From Ureibacillus massiliensis 4400831 = CIP 108448 = CCUG 49529 (GTDB taxonomy: Bacteria > Bacillota > Bacilli > Bacillales_A > Planococcaceae): DNA of 64,000 bases. Under the pieces are notes generated by a model. That model saw only the letters and a program-made list of their open reading frames with translations. It was not told the DNA's origin and ran no database searches. The translations under genes and the position numbers were made by a program. Below, piece by piece: positions 18,815 to 63,562 of this stretch; within the stretch, counting starts at the first letter, position 1; each line of letters starts with the position of its first letter. The stretch spans positions 1 through 64,000 of the forward strand of contig NZ_JPVQ01000020.1 of the NCBI RefSeq assembly GCF_000772965.1. Reading direction: 5' to 3'.

Positions 18815-19522
18815 TTAGTTAAGGATATTGTACTTCAATTTAATACGTTTTAACTTCTCACCAATAGGTTTAGTTAAAATGAGTAAGAAAATTACATTAG
18901 AAATAGCATACATTACTGTAAACGGTAACGCAGTCGTCAATGCTAATAGATAGGCTTCTAGAGAAAACAACCCTGTAATGGATAAGACGCTCCAAACATC
19001 CATTCCGATTGAATAAAACACTCCCGTTGCAACACCGAATACTATTAATGCGACCTTCCCTTCCATTTTCCCAGTCTTCCCGAGTAAGCCCGCAAAAAAT
19101 CCTATCAATCCCCAAGTAAACATTTGAAATGGTGTCCAAGGTCCTTGGCCAAAAAACATATTTGAAACAATGGCACTTAAAGCACCTGTTAAAAAGCCAG
19201 CCTCTGCCCCTAAATATATACCTGTAATTGCAGTTATAGCCGCAACAGGTTTGAACCCGGGTGTTACAGCAAATAATACACGACCTGCTACAGAAATTGC
19301 TGCCATAACAGCAATCAATAAAATTTCTCTAGGCTGCGGCTTTCGCATCTCAAATCTTAAAATGAATGGTATACAAGCTAATAATATTAAAATAACTGAA
19401 ATAACATAGTATTTTCGATCTTCTAATAATACGACACCACCATATAGCACCAATGGCATGAAGATAAATATAATAATTACCGTAAAAGTTAACCGGAAGC
19501 GACTTTGTCTGCTTTTTTGCAT
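18815..19522 (-). CDS. ECF transporter S component, predicted cobalamin-specific (CbrT-like)
   Basis: Predicted substrate-binding membrane subunit of an energy-coupling-factor importer. The 235 residues hold seven or so TM spans, including an N-terminal pair (about 10-30 and 36-52). The core begins PREILLIAVMAAISVAGRVLF, containing the small-residue AxxxA face used by S components to dock on EcfT. It ends with a basic tail. Substrate is inferred, not read. The gene is last in an operon controlled by a cobalamin riboswitch, next to dedicated EcfA and EcfT genes (the CbrT-type group). It overlaps the ATPase gene by 34 bases, suggesting coupled translation. Alternatives are a cobalamin precursor or another corrinoid. 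Confidence 0.75.
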   Translation of the reverse strand: MQKSRQSRFRLTFTVIIIFIFMPLVLYGGVVLLEDRKYYVISVILILLACIPFILRFEMRKPQPREILLIAVMAAISVAGRVLFAVTPGFKPVAAITAITGIYLGAEAGFLTGALSAIVSNMFFGQGPWTPFQMFTWGLIGFFAGLLGKTGKMEGKVALIVFGVATGVFYSIGMDVWSVLSITGLFSLEAYLLALTTALPFTVMYAISNVIFLLILTKPIGEKLKRIKLKYNILN

Positions 19523-21144
19523 AACTTAACCACATCCTCACAGGTAATTGCATTATCAAATATCTTTCTTGTCATTCGATGGGCTGCTGTTGTATAGAAA
19601 GTATTTCCACTGTAAAATTTACGAGGAGGATCATTCGATATAATTTGACCATCAAAAAATAATGCACAACGATCGCTATATTGTGCTGAAAATTCAATAT
19701 CGTGTGTAACCATTAAAATTGTGACACCATGTTTTTGCAATACTTGTAGAGTCTCTGCTAAGGATTGCTTTGCATGTGCATCTAGACCTTTTGTCGGTTC
19801 ATCAAGTAATAAAATTCGTGGATTAAGTAATAATAGTTTGGCTATTGCAAGCTTCTGTTGTTCACCACCGCTTAAATCAAAAGGATGTCGCTCTAATAAT
19901 CCTCCTAATCCAAATAATTCAATAATCTGCTCAATTTTCGATATAGATCCCGCCATTTTCGCCGTCGTCTGTAATTCCTGACTCACCTTTTTTTCAACAA
20001 ATAACACAGTTGGGTCTTGTGGTAAAACTGCCATATTTTTTTGATATAATTCTGTATTTGTATACTTATTTATCTTTCTACCATTTAAAAAAACTTGTCC
20101 ACGATATGGCTTTAATAGTCCCGATAGCACTTTTAAAGCTGTAGACTTCCCGGTTCCGTTACCACCAATGACTGATAGAAATTCACCCTCATAAACTTTT
20201 ATATTGAAATACCTTAGAATATCTTGTCCATCTTTCACATACCTGAATGCTACATCCTTTGCTTCAAGAACGATTTCCTGTTTTTCGTGTAGTACTTCGT
20301 CTTCAATTCTATCATTCTCAATATCCATTTCCTGCAAATATTGTCTTCCCTCTTTAATCGTTAAAGGAGAGTCTATCATCCCCCCCAATGAATGATAAAT
20401 TCTCATTGCCGAGGGTAACGCTTTAATCATCGCATGTCCATGCGGCAATCCTTGTAATAGATTTCGTGGTTTTCCATTGTAAATGACAGTACCTTTCTCC
20501 ATAACAATAACGCGACTTGCCATTGGTAAAACTTCTTCTAAACGATGCTCTGCAATGAGGATTGTCAACCCAAGTTCTTCATTTAGTTTCCGGAGCATTG
20601 TCATAAATTCAGAAGCCGCTATGGGATTTAATTGGGACGTTGGTTCGTCAAGTAATAAAAGGCTTGGTTGCATTACCATAACGGATGCCAAATTTAATAG
20701 CTGCTTTTGCCCTCCAGATAAATCGATTGTACTTTGACGAAACCATTGCTGAATTCCAAAAAAGTTTGCCATTTCAGCAACACGTCTACGAATAGTATGT
20801 GTTTCTAGACCTAAGTTTTCTAATCCAAAGGCTAATTCATGCCAAACTTTATCGGTTACAATTTGGTTTTCTGGATTTTGTAGTACAATCCCAATCTCTG
20901 AGGATTTCAATTGTGCTTCTATTAAATGTATAGGTGTATCCCTATAGAAAATTTCACCTATCAATTGGCCATGTGGCGCAATTTCTCGTTTTATTTGCTT
21001 AAGTAATGTACTTTTTCCACATCCTGATTGACCTAAAAGAACGACGAATTCACCTTCATCAATTTCAAGATTAATAGAGTGTAGGGCATTATCCTTCTCT
21101 TCTGGATATGAAAAACTCAAATCTTTGATTGTAAGTACCGCCAT
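19489..21144 (-). CDS. ECF transporter double ATPase (fused EcfA-EcfA')
   Basis: Energises the ECF importer. The 551 residues contain two complete ABC ATPase domains in tandem. Domain 1 has Walker A GQSGCGKST (residues 38-46), Q-loop VLQNPENQI, signature LSGGQKQ and Walker B LLLLDEPTS. Domain 2 has Walker A GGNGTGKST near 325, Q-loop LPQDP, signature LSGGEQQ and Walker B ILLLDEPTKGLD. Most ECF modules have two separate ATPase genes (ecfA1, ecfA2); here they are one polypeptide, as in dedicated (group I) systems. It overlaps the upstream EcfT gene by 28 bases. With the neighbouring S and T genes it makes a self-sufficient transporter. Confidence 0.93.
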   Translation of the reverse strand: MAVLTIKDLSFSYPEEKDNALHSINLEIDEGEFVVLLGQSGCGKSTLLKQIKREIAPHGQLIGEIFYRDTPIHLIEAQLKSSEIGIVLQNPENQIVTDKVWHELAFGLENLGLETHTIRRRVAEMANFFGIQQWFRQSTIDLSGGQKQLLNLASVMVMQPSLLLLDEPTSQLNPIAASEFMTMLRKLNEELGLTILIAEHRLEEVLPMASRVIVMEKGTVIYNGKPRNLLQGLPHGHAMIKALPSAMRIYHSLGGMIDSPLTIKEGRQYLQEMDIENDRIEDEVLHEKQEIVLEAKDVAFRYVKDGQDILRYFNIKVYEGEFLSVIGGNGTGKSTALKVLSGLLKPYRGQVFLNGRKINKYTNTELYQKNMAVLPQDPTVLFVEKKVSQELQTTAKMAGSISKIEQIIELFGLGGLLERHPFDLSGGEQQKLAIAKLLLLNPRILLLDEPTKGLDAHAKQSLAETLQVLQKHGVTILMVTHDIEFSAQYSDRCALFFDGQIISNDPPRKFYSGNTFYTTAAHRMTRKIFDNAITCEDVVKLCKKADKVASG

Positions 21145-21998
21145 TTGATGCCCTCCTTAACATTCGTCATAATTGGAATAGACAATAAGATCAGATAGTC
21201 AAAATAAAATAGTAAATGATCCATAGACCAATAAAGTTTCATAAATGTAGGATAATAATAATAGGTCATATAACCAGTAAAAACACCATATAAACATACT
21301 GAGATTAAAATAGTAATGTAAACGAGCATCTTGACATCTCGTTTCTCTAAGACAAACAAAGAAAAAGTAGAACGTTTTTTCACCCCATATCCCCTTGCTC
21401 TCATCGAATCTGCTGTTTCTATCGCGTTTTCTAATGCCCAGGTTATGAGTATAGACAAAATATTCATGCAACTCTTCACACGATGCAAAGGTGAACCGAC
21501 TGTAAAATCCATCCCAATTGTTTTTTGTGCCTCAGAAATGACACGCAGTTGATGTTTAAAGCGTGGAATTAGCCTCATCGTGATAGAAATCGTTAAAGCC
21601 AATACGGGCGATACTTTACCAAAAAGATATAGAAACTTATCAGATGTCATGGCTATGTTATAACAACTAAACCAAAACATTATTGCAACAATTAGTAAGG
21701 CAATAGCAAACCCATATACAATTGCTTCAATCGTAATTGGATTGTCATTGATATATAAAATGACAAGCTTACCATTGTGACTAATTAGCGGGTTCACAAC
21801 TGCCATTCCCAATAACAATGGGACATAATACCAGCTAGACTTCCAAAATTGACCCCTTAACCAAATCAATCGTAATATCGTTGCAAGGAAAAAGGTACTT
21901 ACAATATAAACTGGATGCATAAAAAACATCGTCATACAAATTACAGAAGAAAAATAACAAAATATTACAATCGGATGATACGTTTCAAATGCTTTCAT
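21117..21998 (-). CDS. ECF transporter transmembrane component EcfT
   Basis: The integral-membrane coupling subunit that links the ATPases to the S component. The 293 residues hold an N-terminal cluster of TM helices (to about 130), a cytoplasmic coupling region (about 140-215), and a C-terminal pair of TM helices. The coupling region carries the family motifs, including ADSMRARGYG with the ARG triplet that docks on the ATPase grooves. A start five codons further upstream is possible. The chosen ATG overlaps the lipoprotein gene stop as ATGA and has GGAG just upstream, so coupled translation is likely. It is an operon member between the DUF4430 lipoprotein and the ATPase. Confidence 0.9.
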   Translation of the reverse strand: MKAFETYHPIVIFCYFSSVICMTMFFMHPVYIVSTFFLATILRLIWLRGQFWKSSWYYVPLLLGMAVVNPLISHNGKLVILYINDNPITIEAIVYGFAIALLIVAIMFWFSCYNIAMTSDKFLYLFGKVSPVLALTISITMRLIPRFKHQLRVISEAQKTIGMDFTVGSPLHRVKSCMNILSILITWALENAIETADSMRARGYGVKKRSTFSLFVLEKRDVKMLVYITILISVCLYGVFTGYMTYYYYPTFMKLYWSMDHLLFYFDYLILLSIPIMTNVKEGIKWRYLQSKI

Positions 21999-22858
21999 TG
22001 GTCTCCATTCCAATCATCACCTAAATCTCGACCTAAATCTACAGTATAATGCCATTCAATGACATCTCCGTCCTTTAGTATATATTGACTGCTTCCGTAA
22101 TTAGGAAAATCGCCATTCACACTATACATCCAACCGCTTAATTCACCAGCGCTAAATTCATAAAGATGGTTTATACCTTCAATATAGACACTGTTGTAAA
22201 TATTTTGATCTGCGCCTTGGTATTCCATTTGGATGTTATGTTCTTTTGTGGCGCGAACAAGAATATCCCATACCGTTTCATTATCACTGAGTAATTCGTA
22301 TCGAGTTGGACCTAATATAATACCATTTCTCGGTACATATTGATCGCTACGTAAAGAAGGATGAAGTAAATCCATATTGTTCAAAAGTGATTTCACATAA
22401 ATCCCAATCGTTACGTATCTTTTCGGTACAGCAGATTCGGTTATTTCTTTATCTTTATCTGTTTCTAAGGTATTTGCATCTTCTTTTGTCGTTGCAGAAT
22501 CTTGTTTTACTAGAGTATCTTCTGTTTTTGGTACTACTGTTTCTACTGGTTTCTTTTCATTATTAGTCTCTAGATTACTAGTTTCTTTAGAGTCCTCTTT
22601 AGGTTTCTCTTCCTCGTCACTCTTTTTTTCTTCTATTTCGATTTCATCTTCCGGTTCAACCGTTAAATTATTTTCTTCTTTACTTTCCAGTTCTTCACTT
22701 TTTTCTACCTGCTCTACATCGATACTTTGCTCCTCCGATGCAAGCTTTTGGTGCTCTTCAACCGTTTCAATTTTACATCCTGCTAATATACAACTGAAAA
22801 GGATTACAATGATTAGAGGTAGCCATTTACGTATCACAAATAATTTCCTCACTTTCAT
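21995..22858 (-). CDS. DUF4430 (transcobalamin C-terminal-like) lipoprotein
   Basis: A 287-residue predicted lipoprotein. A basic N-terminus and hydrophobic span (residues 12-27) end in lipobox ILAGC (Cys28). A long acidic, Glu/Lys/Thr-rich tether follows (about 35-145). A single C-terminal DUF4430 domain (about 150-282) carries the hallmark SGWMYSVNGDFPN and DVIEWHYTVDLG. DUF4430 corresponds to the C-terminal beta domain of eukaryotic transcobalamin and intrinsic factor. It lies between the SLH alpha/alpha-domain gene (ATGA overlap) and EcfT (ATGA overlap). I infer a membrane-side cobalamin-binding partner that passes ligand to the ECF S component. The fold call is from motif similarity; binding is untested. 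Confidence 0.82.
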   Translation of the reverse strand: MKVRKLFVIRKWLPLIIVILFSCILAGCKIETVEEHQKLASEEQSIDVEQVEKSEELESKEENNLTVEPEDEIEIEEKKSDEEEKPKEDSKETSNLETNNEKKPVETVVPKTEDTLVKQDSATTKEDANTLETDKDKEITESAVPKRYVTIGIYVKSLLNNMDLLHPSLRSDQYVPRNGIILGPTRYELLSDNETVWDILVRATKEHNIQMEYQGADQNIYNSVYIEGINHLYEFSAGELSGWMYSVNGDFPNYGSSQYILKDGDVIEWHYTVDLGRDLGDDWNGDQ

Positions 22859-24393
22859 TGAAACTGCTCATAAAAGTTCACAAACATTACAGATGCATGA
22901 GCACGTGTTGTATGATTCGTAGGGTTGAATAAACCGTTAGAACCTGTTGCAATTTTCAAATCATATAATAAGGTAATAGAGTTCTTTGTTTCTTTATTGT
23001 ATTGTTGAATATCTGAATATGGAGCTAACTGTTTTGGTATATAAGTAGAGCCCGTTTTATATGTGTAAGCTCGACCTAACATTTGAGCTAGTTCAACTCT
23101 TGTGATTTTTTCGTTTGGATAAAATTTATCATTTTCATAGAATATAATTCCTGCTTCATAAGCAGCCGCAATCCTTCTTTGGGCGCCTTCATCTAAAGAG
23201 GTAATATCTTTATATGGTGCATCCTGAGTTGCTGTTAAATTTAGAATTTGTACTATAATTGAAGTTGCTTGTAAACGTGTCATAAATTGATTTGGTTTGA
23301 AACTTCCATCTGGGAAACCATTGAGTAAACCTAAATTTGACGCATCTTCAATGAATTGTTTTGCCCAATGGTTTGTTATGTCATTAAATTTTGTTTTGTT
23401 TTGATCATTCGGTATTTGATTATCTTCAGATTGAGACACAGTTTTTGTATCTGACATATCATAAAGTTTTGTTTTGTTTGCAATTAGGCGATGATAGGCG
23501 GCTAGTGCATAACTTGCTTGTTCTGTCGCCATACCATCAGTTTCCTGATCTAATACATGTTTAAAGCCACCAGTTGTCTTATCAAAGTAAGTTAGTAGTT
23601 GAGGTACGACATTTCTAAATCGAGCGTCCTCTAATGGATCAATACCAACACTTGTTAAAGCAACAATCACTTGAGCAACACTTTCAGAATTTGTAACACC
23701 CCAGCTTGCATAACTACCTTCAGAACCTTGAATACTTACTAATGTTTCAAGCGCACTATCAATTGCTACTTTCACTTTTGGCTCGTGACTATATGTCGAT
23801 AAAGCTTGGACAGCCATACTCGTTATATCAGGATCTGCCTTTGTACCTGAGAGGGCGAATCCACCATCATCTAACTGCTTACTTAAAATATAATCAATCA
23901 TCTTCTTGCGACTGTTTGAAGCCGTCGTAGGAATTTTATATCCCCAACTATCTAGAGCAATTAGTGCAAAAATAGGACCATTTATTCCTTGCAAAATCAC
24001 ACGATCGAAATCATATAGTTTTTCTACTAAGTTATAACTACCGACATCCGTTGCATCTTTCCCGATAGCAGATAAAGCTAACACTACCCTTGCATACTCT
24101 GTGTATTTTCTACTATGAAGATTTCCATTCATTTCTTTTACAACGTTTACTAGATTGTTATAGTATGTGTCATAGTAATTTGTAGGAACTTTATAATTTC
24201 CTCTTGCCAAAGCGATAATAAACCACTCATGTCCAAACTTTGGGTTAGGTACCGCATTGACCATATAATTTGCAACCTGATCGTAAGCCTCTTCTGAACT
24301 TATTGTGGTAGCATTAGAAGTTTCTACCGATACTGAGCTCGTTATCACTACCACTAACAGCAAACAAGTAATCCATTGTTTGAATACACGCAT
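22855..24393 (-). CDS. SLH-anchored alpha/alpha-repeat (squalene-cyclase/prenyltransferase-like) protein
   Basis: A 512-residue secreted wall protein. Order: signal peptide (residues 1-29), an alpha/alpha repeat domain (about 33-325), and three SLH domains (about 345-505; for example FNDITNHWAKQFIEDASNLG, then FPDGSFKPNQFMTRLQA). The repeat domain shares whole blocks with the larger upstream protein, such as PKFG.EW, YYNN, YTEY, GKD..DVG.YNL and QGINGxIFAL, so the two are paralogues. Unlike the larger protein it has no DUF4430 domain; the next gene supplies one as a lipoprotein. A 21-codon longer frame is rejected because AAGGGAG lies 7 bases before the chosen ATG. Predicted role: wall-anchored half of a two-part corrinoid-binding pair. 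Confidence 0.8.
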   Translation of the reverse strand: MRVFKQWITCLLLVVVITSSVSVETSNATTISSEEAYDQVANYMVNAVPNPKFGHEWFIIALARGNYKVPTNYYDTYYNNLVNVVKEMNGNLHSRKYTEYARVVLALSAIGKDATDVGSYNLVEKLYDFDRVILQGINGPIFALIALDSWGYKIPTTASNSRKKMIDYILSKQLDDGGFALSGTKADPDITSMAVQALSTYSHEPKVKVAIDSALETLVSIQGSEGSYASWGVTNSESVAQVIVALTSVGIDPLEDARFRNVVPQLLTYFDKTTGGFKHVLDQETDGMATEQASYALAAYHRLIANKTKLYDMSDTKTVSQSEDNQIPNDQNKTKFNDITNHWAKQFIEDASNLGLLNGFPDGSFKPNQFMTRLQATSIIVQILNLTATQDAPYKDITSLDEGAQRRIAAAYEAGIIFYENDKFYPNEKITRVELAQMLGRAYTYKTGSTYIPKQLAPYSDIQQYNKETKNSITLLYDLKIATGSNGLFNPTNHTTRAHASVMFVNFYEQFQ

Positions 24394-24495
24394 TTTTCCA
24401 CTCCCTTTTATGGTAAAGGGGGACGCCCCATCATTTTTGAGACGACCCCTCTTCACTGAGTCAGAGCTAGGTTATCTAGCAATCAAAGTAAATTA

Positions 24496-24528
24496 GAAAA
24501 AATTATTCGATAACGAATCATTCGTTAC
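24496..24528 (-). terminator. Possible intra-operon terminator/attenuator
   Basis: Stem TAACGAAT/ATTCGTTA (24511-24518 with 24520-24527), followed on the minus strand by TCGAATAATTTTTTC. It lies just past the stop of the large SLH gene, in a 146-base gap. It may lower expression of the five downstream genes relative to the surface protein, or mark an mRNA processing site. Confidence 0.45.
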
Positions 24529-24539
24529 TATAAACTCAT

Positions 24540-27500
24540 TTACATTAGGTCGCCAATTTTTAAGGTACGCGTTAAAATTTTAGCCATTTGTCCGCGCGTT
24601 AACTCACCTTGCGGATCAAATGTACCATCCGCTTTCCCATTCATTATGCCTAAGCTATTTAATAAAGAGATACTTTCAGCGAATGACTCGTAGACTTGAT
24701 CACTATCTTTAAATGTAAGTTCACTTGTCGTTTCTGACTTAAATGAAACATATTCTAAAACTTTTGCCATCAGTGCTGCCGCTTGTTGGCGTGTAATTTT
24801 ATCTTCCGGACTAAATGTTGTTTTAGAAGTTCCTGCAGTGATTCCCGCTTCATATAAAGCTTGTATATCCTGTTCATACCATTTTCCTTCTGTATCAACG
24901 AATTGCCCTGAATTTTCAGCGTATAACCCAAGCGCATTAGAAATTAAAGCTGCAAAATGAGCGCGTGTAATTGGTTCATTTGGTGAGAATGTTCCATCTT
25001 CTCGACCTGCAACAATTCCTCGTTTTGCTAAAAACTCTACTTCTTCTTTATATGGTGAATTTGTTAGATCGCTAAACGTAACATCATCTGTTCGAACCAC
25101 AAATGTCCCACCAGATTTCGTTAAAATGATTACTTGTCCATTTTCGATTTTATGTGGAACTGCACGATATTCGCCATCTTCTATTTGAAGAATGACTGCA
25201 CCTTTAGGTAAGTCTGAAATAGGAGTCGTCACTTTCAAGTATTCTTTTCCTGTTTTAATAGACTCAGGAGTACTATTACGATGTTTCACTTCTAGTTCAA
25301 CTATAAATGCTACAGCATCGTTTACTGCTGTGTGTTTTGCCCCTATTACAATTGTTGAATCACTTGGTAATGATAAGATATCCAAAGATGTTGGTACTTC
25401 AATTTTTGTTCCTGTTTCATCTGTGATGATAAGGTTTCCACCTTTTAAATTTTGTGTTTTTACTATCCAATCACTCAATGTAAGCTGTACTTTTGTTTCG
25501 CCATTTTGATTTTTAACTGTAATGGTTGATTCATGAGGATCTGTTTCATTTTGTTCTTCTGGAGTTTTTGAGCCACCGCCAGATCCAGAGCCTCCTCCTC
25601 CACTACTTCCATTGTTTCCAGGATTGGTTTTTGAATCATCGAACCCACCACCAATGTCATTACCTAAATCGGTTGTATATAACCATTCGATTCGATCTCC
25701 AGGTTTTACTTTAAATTTACTTGCACTAATATTCGGAAAATCCCCGTTAACTCGGTACATCCAACCACTTTTTGGACCTTTATCAAATTCATAAAGGCCG
25801 GCAATCCCCTCAACATATACGCCCATATCCGTATTGCGCGCGCTTAATTCAATATCATATTTTTTTGTCGCACGTTTTAACACTTCATATACTGTGTCAC
25901 CATTCTTCACTTCAATTTCAGTAGTAGGAAGTGGTTTATTAGAGCTTGAAATGATTATAGATAATTTAACTTTTTCTATAGGTTGCGGACTACTTCCACC
26001 TGGGTTTGGATTCGATGGAACATCGTCATCTGTATCATTTCCGTTTCCAGGATTCGGATTTTCTGTTGGTTCTTCTTCTGAATTATTGAAATCTGACGGT
26101 TTTACATCCGACATATTATATAAGGCATTTTGACCATTTAATAATCGATTATATGCAGTTAATGCATATGCGGCTTGCTGTGTTGCCATACCATTTGTCG
26201 GGCCATCCTTCGGATGTGCAAATCCCCCGTCAGCTGTATAGTATTCTAGAATCGCTGTTACAATTGTCGAGCCATTTTCTTGAACAAATCTTTCATCTTT
26301 AGTTGCATCAATTCCGAGTGTTGATAACGCTACTAAAACTTGGGCTGCACTTTGAACATTTTCAGTACCCCATGATTCATAACCACCGTTATTCAACTGC
26401 ATATCAGCTAATTTTACAATTGCGCGATCAATAACAGCTTTCACATCAGGTTGATTTTGATATGGTACTAATGCTTGTATCGCCATCGCAGTTATGTCAG
26501 GATCAGGAGTTTTGCCCGATAATGCAAAACCACCAGCATCTGGCTCACCGCGCTTAATTTCCTTATCTAAAATATAATTAATTAGATTTTCTCTTGTCGC
26601 TTGTACTTCGATATCATCTATCTGTGGAATTTCATACCCAAATGTATCTATAGCTATTAAAGCAAATATAGCTCCATTAATCCCTTGTCTAGTAACCTTA
26701 TTAAAGTCTGCTAGTTTTTCAATTAGATTATATCCACCGACATCTCGGGAATCCTTCCCAATAGAACTCAGAGCAATAATTAAACGTGAATATTCTGTAT
26801 AGGTGTTTCTAGTTAGTTCTCCATTTTTCAATTGGAGTTCAGATACTACGTTATTGTAATAAGTTTCATAGTAATCGTTTGGTATTGAATAATTAGAACG
26901 AGCTAACGTTAGGATACTCCATTCGGATCCAAATTTAGGCTCAGCACTAATTGATGCCAAATACGAAGAAGCTGTGTTTATTGCTTCGGAAATAGTTGGT
27001 GTTGTTTCATTTGAATCTTGTATAACTTTAACAGTGATAGTGGTAACAACATCTCCAGCTTTAGCTGAAATTGTAGCGCTACCTGTTGCTATTGCTGTTA
27101 TTTTTCCGTTATCAACTTTTATAATGTCATTATCGCTAGAGCTCCATAAAATGGCCTTATCTTCTGTCGTATTCTCAGGTAATACAGTTGCTGTTAATTG
27201 AAGATTTTCACCAACATGAAGAGTTATTGGACTTGACTCACTTAACTCTATTTTATTAATTGGAATGTTGACTTTTTTATCTTCTTTAACCTCAACTTTT
27301 ACAGAAACAGGTCGAATTATATTGTTATTGTATGTTAAATCTGAAGGGTCACTTTCATATCGATTCGCAGTGATTTCGTAGATTCCTTCTTCAGAAAAAG
27401 AAATAAAGGCTTTACCATCACTATCTGTTTTATAATCCGTTGCTTTTCCATTGATATAAATGGTAGCTCCTTCGACACTATTTGTAGCTACACCCGTGTT

Positions 27501-28211
27501 TATATCTATTTCATTTAATGTAAATGTAACATTTTCGTCAGTACTAACTTTTGCAGTGTCTACACTTAATTCGGTAAAGACTGTTTCTAAGTAATTAGCT
27601 GCATAGTAAATATCTATACGATCTCCAACTTCTAATGGCTCAGAAGACATACCCTCTGGTGCCCAAGTAAGGTTTTTCGTATACAACCAGCCGTCCAAAC
27701 CTGATTCCATTGTAAAAGAACCGTAATCACCTATACGTTCAATAAAGATTGTTCCATTACTACCATTCTCAAAATCATCCAAAGTAATTTTACTGTTTTC
27801 TGCTTTTTCTATGGCTTGTAAGAAAGCATGTCCTACAACTGGAGTTTCTTCTTCTAACCCATACTCATCACTATCAAAAGTTTCTACGCAAATCGTTTGC
27901 AACGGGATTAATGTTTCTAACCAGCTTTCAATCCGTATCTCAATTGGTAAACAGCCGACTTCTTCCGTTTCACTTATCACATCGTTTGTTTTTACATCGG
28001 TTTCGGTTTCTTCTATTATTACGGTGTCTTGAGTAGTACTAATAGTCGGATCAGTTAATGATTCATTGTTGTCATTAACCACCATCTCATTTTCTGTTGA
28101 TGTATAACTATTTCCCTTTGTTTCCACAGCTTGCACAGCTGCTGGTGCAAATAATGAAAACGTTAACAAAAATGCCAAAAATACGTTAAGCCATTTTTTC
28201 AATAAATCCAC
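24540..28211 (-). CDS. SLH surface protein with intrinsic-factor-like alpha/alpha + DUF4430 architecture
   Basis: A 1223-residue secreted protein, first gene after the cobalamin riboswitch. Order: signal peptide (1-28); a DUF4430-like domain (about 90-205, with GLDGWLYTKN and GDRIDIYYA); a beta-sandwich (about 215-310); a BIG2 immunoglobulin-like domain (about 315-397); an alpha/alpha repeat domain (about 405-700). Then a Pro/Asn/Gly linker, a second DUF4430 domain (about 748-855, SGWMYRVNGDFPN), a Gly/Ser linker, a beta domain (about 895-1045), and three SLH domains (1046-1223). Alpha/alpha followed by DUF4430 is the order of intrinsic factor and transcobalamin. The start is a GTG with AAGGGGG 7 bases upstream; an ATG 15 codons earlier lacks a ribosome-binding site. 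Predicted role: surface cobalamin capture (inference). Confidence 0.85.
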   Translation of the reverse strand: MDLLKKWLNVFLAFLLTFSLFAPAAVQAVETKGNSYTSTENEMVVNDNNESLTDPTISTTQDTVIIEETETDVKTNDVISETEEVGCLPIEIRIESWLETLIPLQTICVETFDSDEYGLEEETPVVGHAFLQAIEKAENSKITLDDFENGSNGTIFIERIGDYGSFTMESGLDGWLYTKNLTWAPEGMSSEPLEVGDRIDIYYAANYLETVFTELSVDTAKVSTDENVTFTLNEIDINTGVATNSVEGATIYINGKATDYKTDSDGKAFISFSEEGIYEITANRYESDPSDLTYNNNIIRPVSVKVEVKEDKKVNIPINKIELSESSPITLHVGENLQLTATVLPENTTEDKAILWSSSDNDIIKVDNGKITAIATGSATISAKAGDVVTTITVKVIQDSNETTPTISEAINTASSYLASISAEPKFGSEWSILTLARSNYSIPNDYYETYYNNVVSELQLKNGELTRNTYTEYSRLIIALSSIGKDSRDVGGYNLIEKLADFNKVTRQGINGAIFALIAIDTFGYEIPQIDDIEVQATRENLINYILDKEIKRGEPDAGGFALSGKTPDPDITAMAIQALVPYQNQPDVKAVIDRAIVKLADMQLNNGGYESWGTENVQSAAQVLVALSTLGIDATKDERFVQENGSTIVTAILEYYTADGGFAHPKDGPTNGMATQQAAYALTAYNRLLNGQNALYNMSDVKPSDFNNSEEEPTENPNPGNGNDTDDDVPSNPNPGGSSPQPIEKVKLSIIISSSNKPLPTTEIEVKNGDTVYEVLKRATKKYDIELSARNTDMGVYVEGIAGLYEFDKGPKSGWMYRVNGDFPNISASKFKVKPGDRIEWLYTTDLGNDIGGGFDDSKTNPGNNGSSGGGGSGSGGGSKTPEEQNETDPHESTITVKNQNGETKVQLTLSDWIVKTQNLKGGNLIITDETGTKIEVPTSLDILSLPSDSTIVIGAKHTAVNDAVAFIVELEVKHRNSTPESIKTGKEYLKVTTPISDLPKGAVILQIEDGEYRAVPHKIENGQVIILTKSGGTFVVRTDDVTFSDLTNSPYKEEVEFLAKRGIVAGREDGTFSPNEPITRAHFAALISNALGLYAENSGQFVDTEGKWYEQDIQALYEAGITAGTSKTTFSPEDKITRQQAAALMAKVLEYVSFKSETTSELTFKDSDQVYESFAESISLLNSLGIMNGKADGTFDPQGELTRGQMAKILTRTLKIGDLM

Positions 28212-28273
28212 TATTTTTCCCCCTTGTATTAAATCTCTTAATTTAGTGAATTTCATGCAAGAAATAAAGGCAA

Positions 28274-28310
28274 TAAAAATACCGCTATCTCTAAAATGAG
28301 AAATAGCGGT
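28274..28310 (-). terminator. Terminator of the cobalamin riboswitch expression platform
   Basis: A 12-bp near-perfect stem ACCGCTATCTCT/AGAAATAGCGGT (28281-28292 with 28299-28310). On the minus strand it is followed by ATTTTTATTG. It sits between aptamer and first gene, so ligand binding is expected to allow it to form and cut off transcription. Confidence 0.88.
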
Positions 28311-28407
28311 AAATAGGTAAGAAAAGTATAAAAGAAGTTAAAATATACCCGTTCGTCTATTTGCCGTAAATTCTCCTAACTTCCGAAGAGAGTCGTACGA
28401 TCAGAGA

Positions 28408-28590
28408 AAGGTAGGTCTCCTGGCTTGTGCATCAGTTTACTCTAAGAGCCTTCCCATCTACTAAAAGCCTTCGCTTCATTTGACAGTGGCAAATTCTTAT
28501 TTCATCAGCACTTACAGTTGCGGAAACAGCTTCGGTTTTTCACCGAATTCCCTTTTAAGCTAATTCATTAGCACCTTAATCCTGCAATTC
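28408..28590 (-). ncRNA. Cobalamin riboswitch
   Basis: On the minus strand the conserved blocks appear in order: AGGTGCTAAT; AAAAGGGAATTCGGTG; CCGAAGCTGTTTCCGCAACTGTAA; the B12-box-type TGCCACTGT; and finally AAGCCAGGAGACCTACC. These are the signature elements of the adenosylcobalamin riboswitch family. A promoter lies just upstream and an intrinsic terminator downstream, so it should repress the following operon when cobalamin is plentiful. The 95 or so bases between aptamer and terminator presumably hold the antiterminator. Confidence 0.96.
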
Positions 28591-28606
28591 TATTCACTTA
28601 CAATAG

Positions 28607-28635
28607 AGTATAATCAATAATATTTCCAGAATCAA
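28607..28635 (-). promoter_or_regulatory. SigA promoter of the cobalamin operon
   Basis: TTGATT (28630-28635) and TATACT (28607-28612) with an exact 17-base spacer on the minus strand. This places the transcript start a few bases upstream of the riboswitch aptamer. Confidence 0.72.
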
Positions 28636-28788: not shown

Positions 28789-29544
28789 TTAATCCTCCAA
28801 TACATCATTCAACATTTCCTCAGTTAGTGGTCCTAATATTTGTTTCTCAAAATTTCCATTTTCATCAATAATATAGGTTGTTGGAATCGTTAATATATCA
28901 TAGCTTAACGATATATCCCCTGTTTCATCTAGTAAGATTGGATAAGTGATACCATAATAATCTCTAAAATCATGAATCACATCAATTTCATAATCTTGAT
29001 CGGTAATGTTTAATCCAACTAATACAACATTATGACTACTAGCTAAGTTTTCGTAGAATTTTTGTAATTCCGGAATCTCTTCCTGGCAAGGTGGGCACCA
29101 AGTTGTCCAAAAATTAATGATCACTTTTTTTCCTAAAAAATCTGTAAGTCTAACCGTTTCTCCATCCAAAGTCTTTGTTACAAATTCGGGTGCTTTCTCT
29201 TGAACTTCCATAACCTCAGTATTATTGAGAATGGGTGAATGCCCTTGCCATACATGCCCAATACCATTATTTATATTTGGAGAATTTTCTTCATCTTTAA
29301 TTTGCCCTTGTTCCATTGCTTGTTGTTCGTCATCATTACGCCCTTCGTTAACATCACCAGCGACATAACTATGTTCTTCCGATTCCACAGATAACTCTTC
29401 CTCATCAAGTTCGATATCATTACTTCCTATTACAACACCTGTTTTATTAGCATTGTTTGAAAAGAATATTCCCGTGTAAATTGTCCAGCTAAAGGTACAT
29501 ATCACAATAGCTAAAAGACAATACGTAACCCATTTTTTTTGCAC
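28789..29544 (-). CDS. Membrane-anchored TlpA/ResA-like thiol-disulfide oxidoreductase
   Basis: A 251-residue protein. An N-terminal membrane anchor (about residues 4-25) precedes an acidic low-complexity tether (about 38-100), then a thioredoxin-fold domain (about 112-250). That domain has the active site WCPPC, the TlpA-type NFWTTWCPPCQEEIPEL, and the cis-Pro region LTIPTTYIID. It probably reduces or oxidises thiols outside the membrane. It resembles ResA, encoded elsewhere in this window with WCEPC, but the partner is unknown. A GTG start is chosen because AAGGAG lies 7 bases upstream; an ATG 27 codons earlier gives an unlikely charged N-terminus. It lies between glnA and the cobalamin operon, all on the same strand, with terminator separation from glnA. 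Confidence 0.85.
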   Translation of the reverse strand: MQKKWVTYCLLAIVICTFSWTIYTGIFFSNNANKTGVVIGSNDIELDEEELSVESEEHSYVAGDVNEGRNDDEQQAMEQGQIKDEENSPNINNGIGHVWQGHSPILNNTEVMEVQEKAPEFVTKTLDGETVRLTDFLGKKVIINFWTTWCPPCQEEIPELQKFYENLASSHNVVLVGLNITDQDYEIDVIHDFRDYYGITYPILLDETGDISLSYDILTIPTTYIIDENGNFEKQILGPLTEEMLNDVLED

Positions 29545-29726
29545 ACCATCTCTCCTTTTCAAAATAAAGACTATATTCAACTCTTTATCAATATATGTTT
29601 CTATACTTTTATCATGAAGAATCAATATAGAATATGTACTATCTTGAAAGAGAACAAGTTAAATATTATATGTCTATTAACATGAGGAAGATTTTGTAAA
29701 AAAACAAGTTTATATATCATCAACCA

Positions 29727-31750: not shown

Positions 31751-32329
31751 TTATATTAAATATTGTGATCTTTGATTTTCAATCCATGTTTTCATTGTTC
31801 TGAATAAGACAATCGCAATAGCCATTAATAAAATTCCTTTAATAACATTGAATGGTAATATACCTAGTACGATTGTTTCATACATATCAAATGTTCCCCA
31901 ACCTAATAAATAAGTGTACATTGGAAGGAAAGCAAAGTAATTTAACACGCTCATTCCAACTGACATAATAATTGTACCAATTACTAGGCCAACAGCTAGA
32001 CCTTTTAACGTGTTGAATTTTTTATAAATATAGTACGCAGGTAAAATAAATAAGATTCCGGTTGCAAAATTTGCCATATGTCCAACAGGCACTCCCGTTG
32101 GTGCACCGGAGAAAATCCAGTCTAATATATTTTTAACCAATTCTACTAATATACCTGCTACTGGTCCCATTGTAATGGCAGCAATTAATGCCGGAACATC
32201 ACTAAAATCAATTTGTAAAAATGTAGGGAACCATGGTAGTGGGAAATTTAATAGCATTAATAAGAAAGAAATGCTACTTAGCATGGCGATCGTTACGAAA
32301 GAACGTAACTTCAAGTTTTGCTTACGCAT
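31751..32329 (-). CDS. fmnP: Riboflavin transporter S component FmnP/RibU
   Basis: Binds riboflavin at the membrane for import by a shared ECF module. The 192 residues form six TM spans, beginning LKLRSFVTIAMLSSISFLLMLLNFPLPWFP. The segments IDFSDVPALIA and SGAPTGVPVGHMANF are typical of RibU. The N-terminal AMLSSISF helix carries the small-residue motif that docks on EcfT. No ATPase or T gene lies next to it, so it must use a general ECF module, unlike the self-contained cobalamin system upstream. The FMN riboswitch in the leader confirms substrate. Shine-Dalgarno GAGGAGAG. Confidence 0.95.
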   Translation of the reverse strand: MRKQNLKLRSFVTIAMLSSISFLLMLLNFPLPWFPTFLQIDFSDVPALIAAITMGPVAGILVELVKNILDWIFSGAPTGVPVGHMANFATGILFILPAYYIYKKFNTLKGLAVGLVIGTIIMSVGMSVLNYFAFLPMYTYLLGWGTFDMYETIVLGILPFNVIKGILLMAIAIVLFRTMKTWIENQRSQYLI

Positions 32330-63399: not shown

Positions 63400-63500
63400 A
63401 TGAATGCTATGGGTCCACTATAGCAGGAGCAATTTCTGGAGAGTTCGCATTTAGCGACGCCGAAGGGTTCACAATCTCAGGCAAAAGGACAGAAAAAGTA
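63400..63500 (+). ncRNA. Glycine riboswitch (single aptamer)
   Basis: The glycine aptamer core is present in order: TTTCTGGAGAG (P1 with CAGAAA at 63490-63495), GACGCCGAAGGGTTCA and CTCAGGCAAAAGGACAGA. A GCTAT/ATAGC hairpin (63406-63424) lies directly 5'. Only one complete aptamer is visible, so it is a singlet, perhaps with a remnant partner in the 5' hairpins. An intrinsic terminator follows, and the regulated gene is an amino-acid permease. Confidence 0.9.
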
Positions 63501-63562
63501 ACAAATACGTTTGATTCTATTTGAATCATTGTATTTTTATTTGTTATTTTTTTAATTTCTTT

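Follow-up and report, generated by a model that had tools for sequence, protein, structure and literature searches.

We analyzed a 64,000-nucleotide stretch of the genome of Ureibacillus massiliensis 4400831 (= CIP 108448 = CCUG 49529; assembly GCF_000772965.1, contig NZ_JPVQ01000020.1, positions 1 to 64,000; here, the window), in which a cobalamin riboswitch precedes six genes. They encode two SLH proteins (P1 and P2), a DUF4430 lipoprotein (P3), and the EcfT, double EcfA, and S components of an ECF transporter. We regard this operon, with a probability of about 0.88, as a riboswitch-controlled corrinoid (B12) scavenging system. Corrinoid as the substrate, which an earlier reading of the sequence alone (here, the original prediction) had proposed, is supported by the riboswitch together with the match of the S component to 6FNP. 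This structure is ECF-CbrT of Lactobacillus delbrueckii, for which transport of cobalamin and cobinamide has been demonstrated (Santos et al. 2018, PMC5997447).

The riboswitch-headed operon and its transporter

The S component is closer in sequence to CbrT than to other S components of known structure. As a single sequence it had a sole match in PDB at E<=10, namely 6fnp_A (2.9e-8, residues 63-230), and a profile of ten relatives matched the same chain at 3e-21, the next S-component chain being 4hzu_S at 0.001. Chain 6fnp_A is labelled just “Membrane protein” in its file and was taken to be CbrT because chain A matches S components. Residue 63 is the start of the CbrT-like core, before which one or two hydrophobic stretches occur in 10/10 rows (just one, by hydropathy, in the related locus L009; see below).

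The riboswitch scored 108.8 bits against a gathering score of 31.5, spans model positions 1-189 and thus the full RF00174 aptamer, and is the only cobalamin riboswitch at gathering score within the window. Between the aptamer and P1 lies a terminator-like hairpin that is far more stable than its own shuffles (minimum free energy [MFE], -18.4 kcal/mol; z, -7.08); it is likely the expression platform, which would turn the operon off when corrinoid is bound. The genes follow on the minus strand in the order P1, P2, P3, EcfT, double EcfA, and S component. Measured from the first possible start codons, the intergenic gaps are 83, -4, -19, -28, and -34 nt, and the last five genes mutually overlap if these starts are used. 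The single riboswitch with six same-strand genes described in the original prediction was confirmed by the RF00174 score, the open reading frames, and the Pfam domains. Because promoter-like matches near the leader were no commoner than in shuffles (42 versus 40.1), no promoter is claimed. The upstream neighbor, a ResA-like thioredoxin gene (28789-29625), lies before the riboswitch and was excluded from the gene set.

By Pfam, P1 contains DUF4430 in two stretches (5.5e-26 for the whole protein), Big_2, and three SLH domains, whereas P2 has three SLH domains and an alpha/alpha toroid, recognized as Prenyltrans at 26.7 bits against a cut-off of 26.5. P3 has the lipobox LAGC (read by eye). The toroids of P1 and P2 are 47% identical, and so are the DUF4430 domains of P1 and P3 (47%). 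The more probable start of P1 is GTG 28211, preceded by AAGGGGG, rather than ATG 28256, and the likely start of P2 is ATG 24393, behind AAAAGGGAG. A CCCTTT...AAAGGG pairing at 24420-24403, noted by eye, extends into the probable ribosome-binding site of P2 and could make translation of P2 weaker than that of P1.

Table 1. Coordinates (window positions) of the operon, its control elements, and the domains of P1
Feature	Position	Strand	Basis
Cobalamin riboswitch aptamer (RF00174)	28593-28393	minus	108.8 bits, E 2.5e-26
Terminator-like hairpin, aptamer-to-P1 interval	28311-28280	minus	13-bp stem then T-run
P1, SLH-anchored toroid-DUF4430 protein	24540..28256	minus	1238 aa counted from ATG
P1 alpha/alpha toroid, residues 415-720	26097..27014	minus	sub-threshold Prenyltrans; AlphaFold2 barrel; Foldseek matches to transcobalamin, haptocorrin, intrinsic factor
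P1 C-side DUF4430 / transcobalamin-beta-like domain, residues 786-861	25674..25901	minus	best Pfam stretch
P1 SLH domains, about residues 1060-1233	24558..25079	minus	Pfam SLH 8.2e-41; PDB 6bt4
P2, toroid + SLH protein without DUF4430	22855..24456	minus	Pfam domains
P3, DUF4430 lipoprotein	21995..22858	minus	DUF4430 residues 194-272, Pfam 1.4e-17
EcfT (CbiQ family)	21117..22013	minus	Pfam 2.1e-10
Double EcfA ATPase	19489..21144	minus	ABC_tran 2.2e-59 in 2 stretches; TIGR04520 2e-107
S component, CbrT-like	18815..19522	minus	Pfam ECF_trnsprt / ECF-ribofla_trS
Operon-closing terminator-like hairpin	about 18795-18761	minus	MFE -22.1, z -7.58 versus shuffles

Elsewhere in the window, a flavin mononucleotide (FMN) riboswitch (32764-32592) precedes a small S-component-like gene (31751-32329), whose product gave sub-threshold NCBIfam ECF S matches throughout and is probably a RibU-type riboflavin transporter. 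A glycine riboswitch (63426-63502, 50.9 bits) lies close to the window end.

Likeness of the surface proteins to animal B12 carriers

Residues 415-872 of P1 were modeled with AlphaFold2 using 16 rows from the window and the fetched loci. The model is confident (pLDDT 85.2, pTM 0.70) and shows a helical barrel joined through a disordered linker to a beta domain. Foldseek, run against 350,542 PDB chains, returned 936 matches, the best 50 of which were examined. Ranks 1-15 are transcobalamin, haptocorrin, or intrinsic factor only (E 2.5e-11 to 4.2e-8), with alignments that span the query length and 13-15% identity in the structural alignments. They are followed by the human transcobalamin beta domain at ranks 16-17 (TMt 0.80-0.81) and by the Ruminococcus gnavus protein 3u7z, labelled putative metal binding, at ranks 18-19; cyclases and prenyltransferases first appear at rank 20.

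For the DUF4430 domain, one pairwise hhalign comparison with a profile built from four animal beta domains gave a probability of 92.7 and an E value of 4.2e-7 over 86 columns; against intrinsic factor alone the probability was about 3, the clear beta-domain match having come only with the four-protein animal profile. Both likenesses put forward in the original prediction, that of the operon's surface proteins to intrinsic factor and that of DUF4430 to the animal beta domain, are supported by these comparisons. Intrinsic factor itself matched the DUF4430 profile at E 0.0029, under the curated score. Single-sequence PDB searches with the toroid-DUF4430 stretch and with P3 found no B12 carrier, and P1 and P2 were without a match to Pfam Cobalamin_bind (PF01122) at E<=1, where intrinsic factor scores 1.9e-108.

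The Asp of a DxT motif is kept in 12/12 toroids and aligns (weakly, with a probability of 11) with the Asp of the animal VDTGAMA motif, which is invariant across the four animal proteins. His193, the residue of rat transcobalamin that binds cobalt, lies in the alpha7/alpha8 loop; Ser195 and Thr198 touch the glutathione of the ligand (PMC11107200). Judging by spacing, we took these three residues to lie at the VDTGAMA/DxT motif. His681 of P1, kept in 10/12 toroids, is a candidate, if unproven, cobalt ligand. Because the human beta domain in isolation binds cobalamin (PMC5599065), it is plausible by analogy that P3 alone does so.

We propose the following mechanism. When corrinoid is scarce, the terminator would stay unformed and the operon would be made, as the combination of aptamer and terminator suggests. 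P1, held at the wall by its SLH domains, would clamp corrinoid between toroid and DUF4430 in the manner of transcobalamin and intrinsic factor, as its predicted fold implies. Close to the membrane, both halves would be available again, as the wall-bound toroid of P2 and the DUF4430 domain of the membrane lipoprotein P3, and these two proteins would deliver the corrinoid to the S component, which is akin in sequence to CbrT. The dedicated EcfT/EcfA motor, driven by ATP, would then move it inward via the S component. Both surface binding and the passage of corrinoid from P1 to P2/P3 and on to the S component are inferred.

Related loci and a possible split carrier

Twenty-two related loci, few and unevenly sampled, were searched with identical profiles. 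Nine (L001-L009) came from one genome-contig scan with P1; their toroids or DUF4430 domains are not independent evidence, as these loci were picked by P1 similarity. The others are from plasmids: L010-L012 were obtained with the P1 domain pair (3 of 4 records) and L013-L022 with the S component (11 of 12 matching records examined; H21 left out). The ECF genes of L013-L019 are near-identical Lactobacillaceae copies.

EcfT, EcfA, and S component are complete in 16/22 loci (incomplete in L007, L011, L012, L020, L021, and L022). A toroid accompanies the full transporter in 15 of these 16 loci, the exception being L019, with an insertion element behind its ECF genes, and DUF4430 does so in 14 (exceptions, L017 and L019). 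The fetched stretch of L017 stops just past the toroid, where its circular record ends, and the L019 record has a DUF4430 match elsewhere. In the S-component-fetched loci L013-L019, toroids are present in 6/7 and DUF4430 in 5/7. Surface anchors differ: SLH in L001, L002, and L007, LPXTG in L010, and DUF5776, of unknown role, in L014. A cobalamin riboswitch at gathering score was found in seven loci (L001, L002, L004, L006, L007, L014, and L016), each time before the first predicted secreted protein of the cluster (positions by eye); in L004 and L006 this protein has no DUF4430 or toroid match. In L014, the riboswitch is followed by a toroid-DUF4430 protein, a toroid, and a DUF4430 protein, which is the P1-P2-P3 order.

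Several loci deserve mention in their own right. L007:6335-16522 contains a cobalamin riboswitch before genes for a toroid-DUF4430-SLH protein, a weak DUF4430 protein, and a second SLH protein; no ECF match was found in its fetched stretch. In three metagenome-assembled genomes, EcfA-EcfA-S is one open reading frame (L001:8260-10947, L002:12752-15430, and L003:12001-15474), about 870-890 aa long from the EcfA start. Such a fusion ties the S component covalently to the double ATPase and would bar the S exchange known from shared ECF modules. Plasmid proteins of Lactobacillaceae annotated as “fucose-binding lectin II” (L013:9725-10777, L014:1754-2800, and in L016, L017, and L018) match the toroid profile at E about 1e-19 to 1e-21, and the annotation is therefore probably wrong. 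The cluster of Lactobacillus kefiranofaciens (L015:4105-6554) also includes EutP/PduV and BMC-domain genes, the setting of B12-dependent microcompartments. On an Enterococcus faecium plasmid (L022:8992-9883), a CbrT-like S component is directly followed by a small annotated DUF4430 protein.

In five of the 16 full-transporter loci (L004, L005, L006, L008, and L009), the gene immediately ahead of EcfT encodes toroid and DUF4430 in a single protein, and separate toroid-only and DUF4430-only proteins occur in 9 (L001, L002, L003, L010, L013, L014, L015, L016, and L018). On the simplest reading, P2 and P3 would jointly do what the fused protein does alone. This suggests, tentatively and with odds that we put below even, a “split intrinsic factor,” in which the wall toroid P2 and the lipoprotein P3 would jointly close on one corrinoid; the P2/P3 clamp would take it from the one-chain P1 clamp and open at the CbrT-like S component. 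What speaks for such a split is the position of the fusion just before EcfT, the carrier-like structure matches of the L004 fusion given below, the separate halves in 9 of the 16 loci, and the DUF4430 tree, in which the fused domains group with P3, apart from the P1 type (98/96). The lone DUF4430 of L010 groups with the P1 type, which argues against a clean P1/P3 division. Against the split itself, the tree sets the fused toroids off from every other toroid (97/95); a special relationship between them and the P2 toroid is therefore unsupported, and we lowered our estimate for the split slightly. Within the window, the P1 and P2 toroids pair as sisters (90/86), which hints at a duplication within this lineage. 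The L004 fused protein, modeled on its own (pLDDT 75.3, pTM 0.52), shows a barrel, two long helices, and a beta domain; the helices (410-430 and 436-454) look like a transmembrane hairpin by sequence. In Foldseek, PDB ranks 1-15 of 546 for this model were all transcobalamin, haptocorrin, or intrinsic factor, with cyclases close behind. The split clamp, if true, would be a new way of handing a vitamin from wall to membrane.

Competing explanations and known systems

A number of observations weigh against corrinoid scavenging. Foldseek ranks 1-15 have a root mean square deviation of about 10-14 Å and TM scores of 0.35-0.52, so that the domains are alike singly and their mutual placement is unlike that in the holo animal proteins. 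The overall architecture of the transcobalamin/intrinsic factor family, a barrel plus a beta domain, is present over the whole length of the P1 415-872 model. HMMER searches of PDB with both bacterial profiles found no B12 carrier at E<=10, the toroid profile matching squalene cyclases best (8.8e-14). Profile comparison of the toroid with the animal alpha domain was weak (probability 11, P 0.0027), and in that weak alignment P1 and P2 have no His in the loop that matches the transcobalamin cobalt ligand. When loci are fetched by the S component (L013-L022), toroids and DUF4430 are each found in 6/10. Three Enterococcus loci (L020-L022) lack a toroid, EcfT, or EcfA match nearby; among them, the DUF4430 profile matched in L021 and missed the annotated DUF4430 of L022. 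The riboswitch was not found in 15/22 loci, upstream DNA being missing for only three of these (L005, L008, and L015), and in L014 and L016 it precedes just the surface genes, the ECF genes lying on the opposite strand.

A narrower role for the surface proteins would have P1 and P2 act in the S-layer or adhesion, or resemble terpene cyclases, with only P3 and the ECF genes handling B12. The best sequence match of the toroid profile, to squalene-hopene cyclases, fits this explanation, as do relatives annotated as terpene cyclase or fucose-binding lectin. The P1 structure search, however, puts B12 carriers above every cyclase, and for the natural L004 fusion they are ahead by a small margin (8.3e-6 versus 2.1e-5); moreover, 15/16 ECF loci have a toroid, and the riboswitch is placed before P1. 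We therefore consider this explanation very unlikely. Transport of cobalt (Co2+), which the CbiQ/CbiO family names would suggest, seems more improbable still: EcfT falls in Pfam CbiQ, and cobalamin riboswitches often control cobalt importers, but the S component has no CbiM match and a sole PDB match to ECF-CbrT, and the surface unit is predicted to have the fold of a B12 carrier.

The choice between complete B12 and its precursors or analogues (cobinamide, cobyrate forms) is less sharp. The cobalamin bound by animal carriers of the P1 fold is the complete molecule, and cobalamin riboswitches sense finished cobalamins; both facts favor B12 itself and leave room for precursors. Near the same ECF genes, two L. 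brevis plasmids as well as L. plantarum pMF1298-5 each have a gene for adenosylcobinamide-GDP ribazoletransferase, which is called cobS on two of these three plasmids. Cobinamide, besides cobalamin, is carried by ECF-CbrT (PMC5997447), and a 2021 review lists cbrUVT under cobyrinate diamide uptake (PMC8123684). Uptake of such compounds instead of, or besides, B12 is the likeliest of the three alternatives, although still unlikely in our estimation.

Scavenging of corrinoid from the wall inward, the explanation we favor, has a precedent in prediction. Burroughs et al. (2007, PMC1796856) described a transcobalamin-like SLBB clade in low-GC Gram-positives, with toroid fusions, wall anchoring, and paralogous partners, in CbiO/CbiQ operons; they predicted B12 scavenging and proposed toroid-SLBB transfer to animals, and an Oceanobacillus protein is among their matches. 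Their set and ours have in common a secreted, often wall-anchored toroid-SLBB fusion, a further extracellular SLBB protein that is a paralog, partners resembling CbiO and CbiQ, and a DUF4430/SLBB domain of transcobalamin type with the toroid fused or adjacent (PMC1796856). Neither “riboswitch” nor “SLH” appears in the main text of that paper (0 occurrences each; PMC1796856), which as far as its text was available mentions neither a toroid-only partner nor a CbrT-like S component and contains no structure model. The gene set is thus a well-supported further case of a predicted kind, and the general idea dates from 2007. The idea is accordingly less new than the original prediction had supposed. 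That prediction knew of no experimental description of the full set; judged by title and start of abstract, no experiments on these surface proteins appeared among the open-access matches listed, subscription papers being mostly outside the search. New here are the structural test, the CbrT link, and the hint of a split carrier.

As for the transporter, the S components of the window and of ECF-CbrT from L. delbrueckii are homologous (3e-21 as a profile); in L. delbrueckii the ECF module serves further S components besides CbrT, and the word “lipoprotein” is absent from that paper (0 occurrences; PMC5997447). The motor of the window, by comparison, is dedicated, has its two ATPases fused, and shares an operon with the surface proteins. 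The ECF part was reportedly predicted by Rodionov et al. in 2009 (cited in PMC5997447). On L. plantarum pMF1298-5 it is named CbrV-CbrU-CbrT (PMC6722938), and the T-AA-S set is common to both. Toroid and DUF4430 genes, as we found, adjoin it there; they are left unnamed in the available text (PMC6722938), and the toroid is annotated as “fucose-binding lectin II.”

Little work has addressed B12 capture at the Gram-positive wall, and where intrinsic factor came from has yet to be settled, a bacterial source having been proposed in 2007. The locus is a compact, riboswitch-marked set that joins a strong structural match to animal carriers with an S component homologous to one of demonstrated B12 transport, and B12 capture is therefore directly testable. 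Animal transcobalamin, haptocorrin, and intrinsic factor, the top structural matches, share with the window proteins an alpha/alpha barrel followed by a beta-grasp domain. The animal carriers are soluble and enter cells by receptor endocytosis; unlike them, the window proteins are anchored to wall or membrane beside the transporter. The surface B12 lipoproteins BtuG of Bacteroides are, to our knowledge, not of the same fold family as the window proteins. Both kinds would nevertheless capture B12 at the cell surface for a transporter, BtuG doing so in Gram-negative bacteria (PMC6143338).

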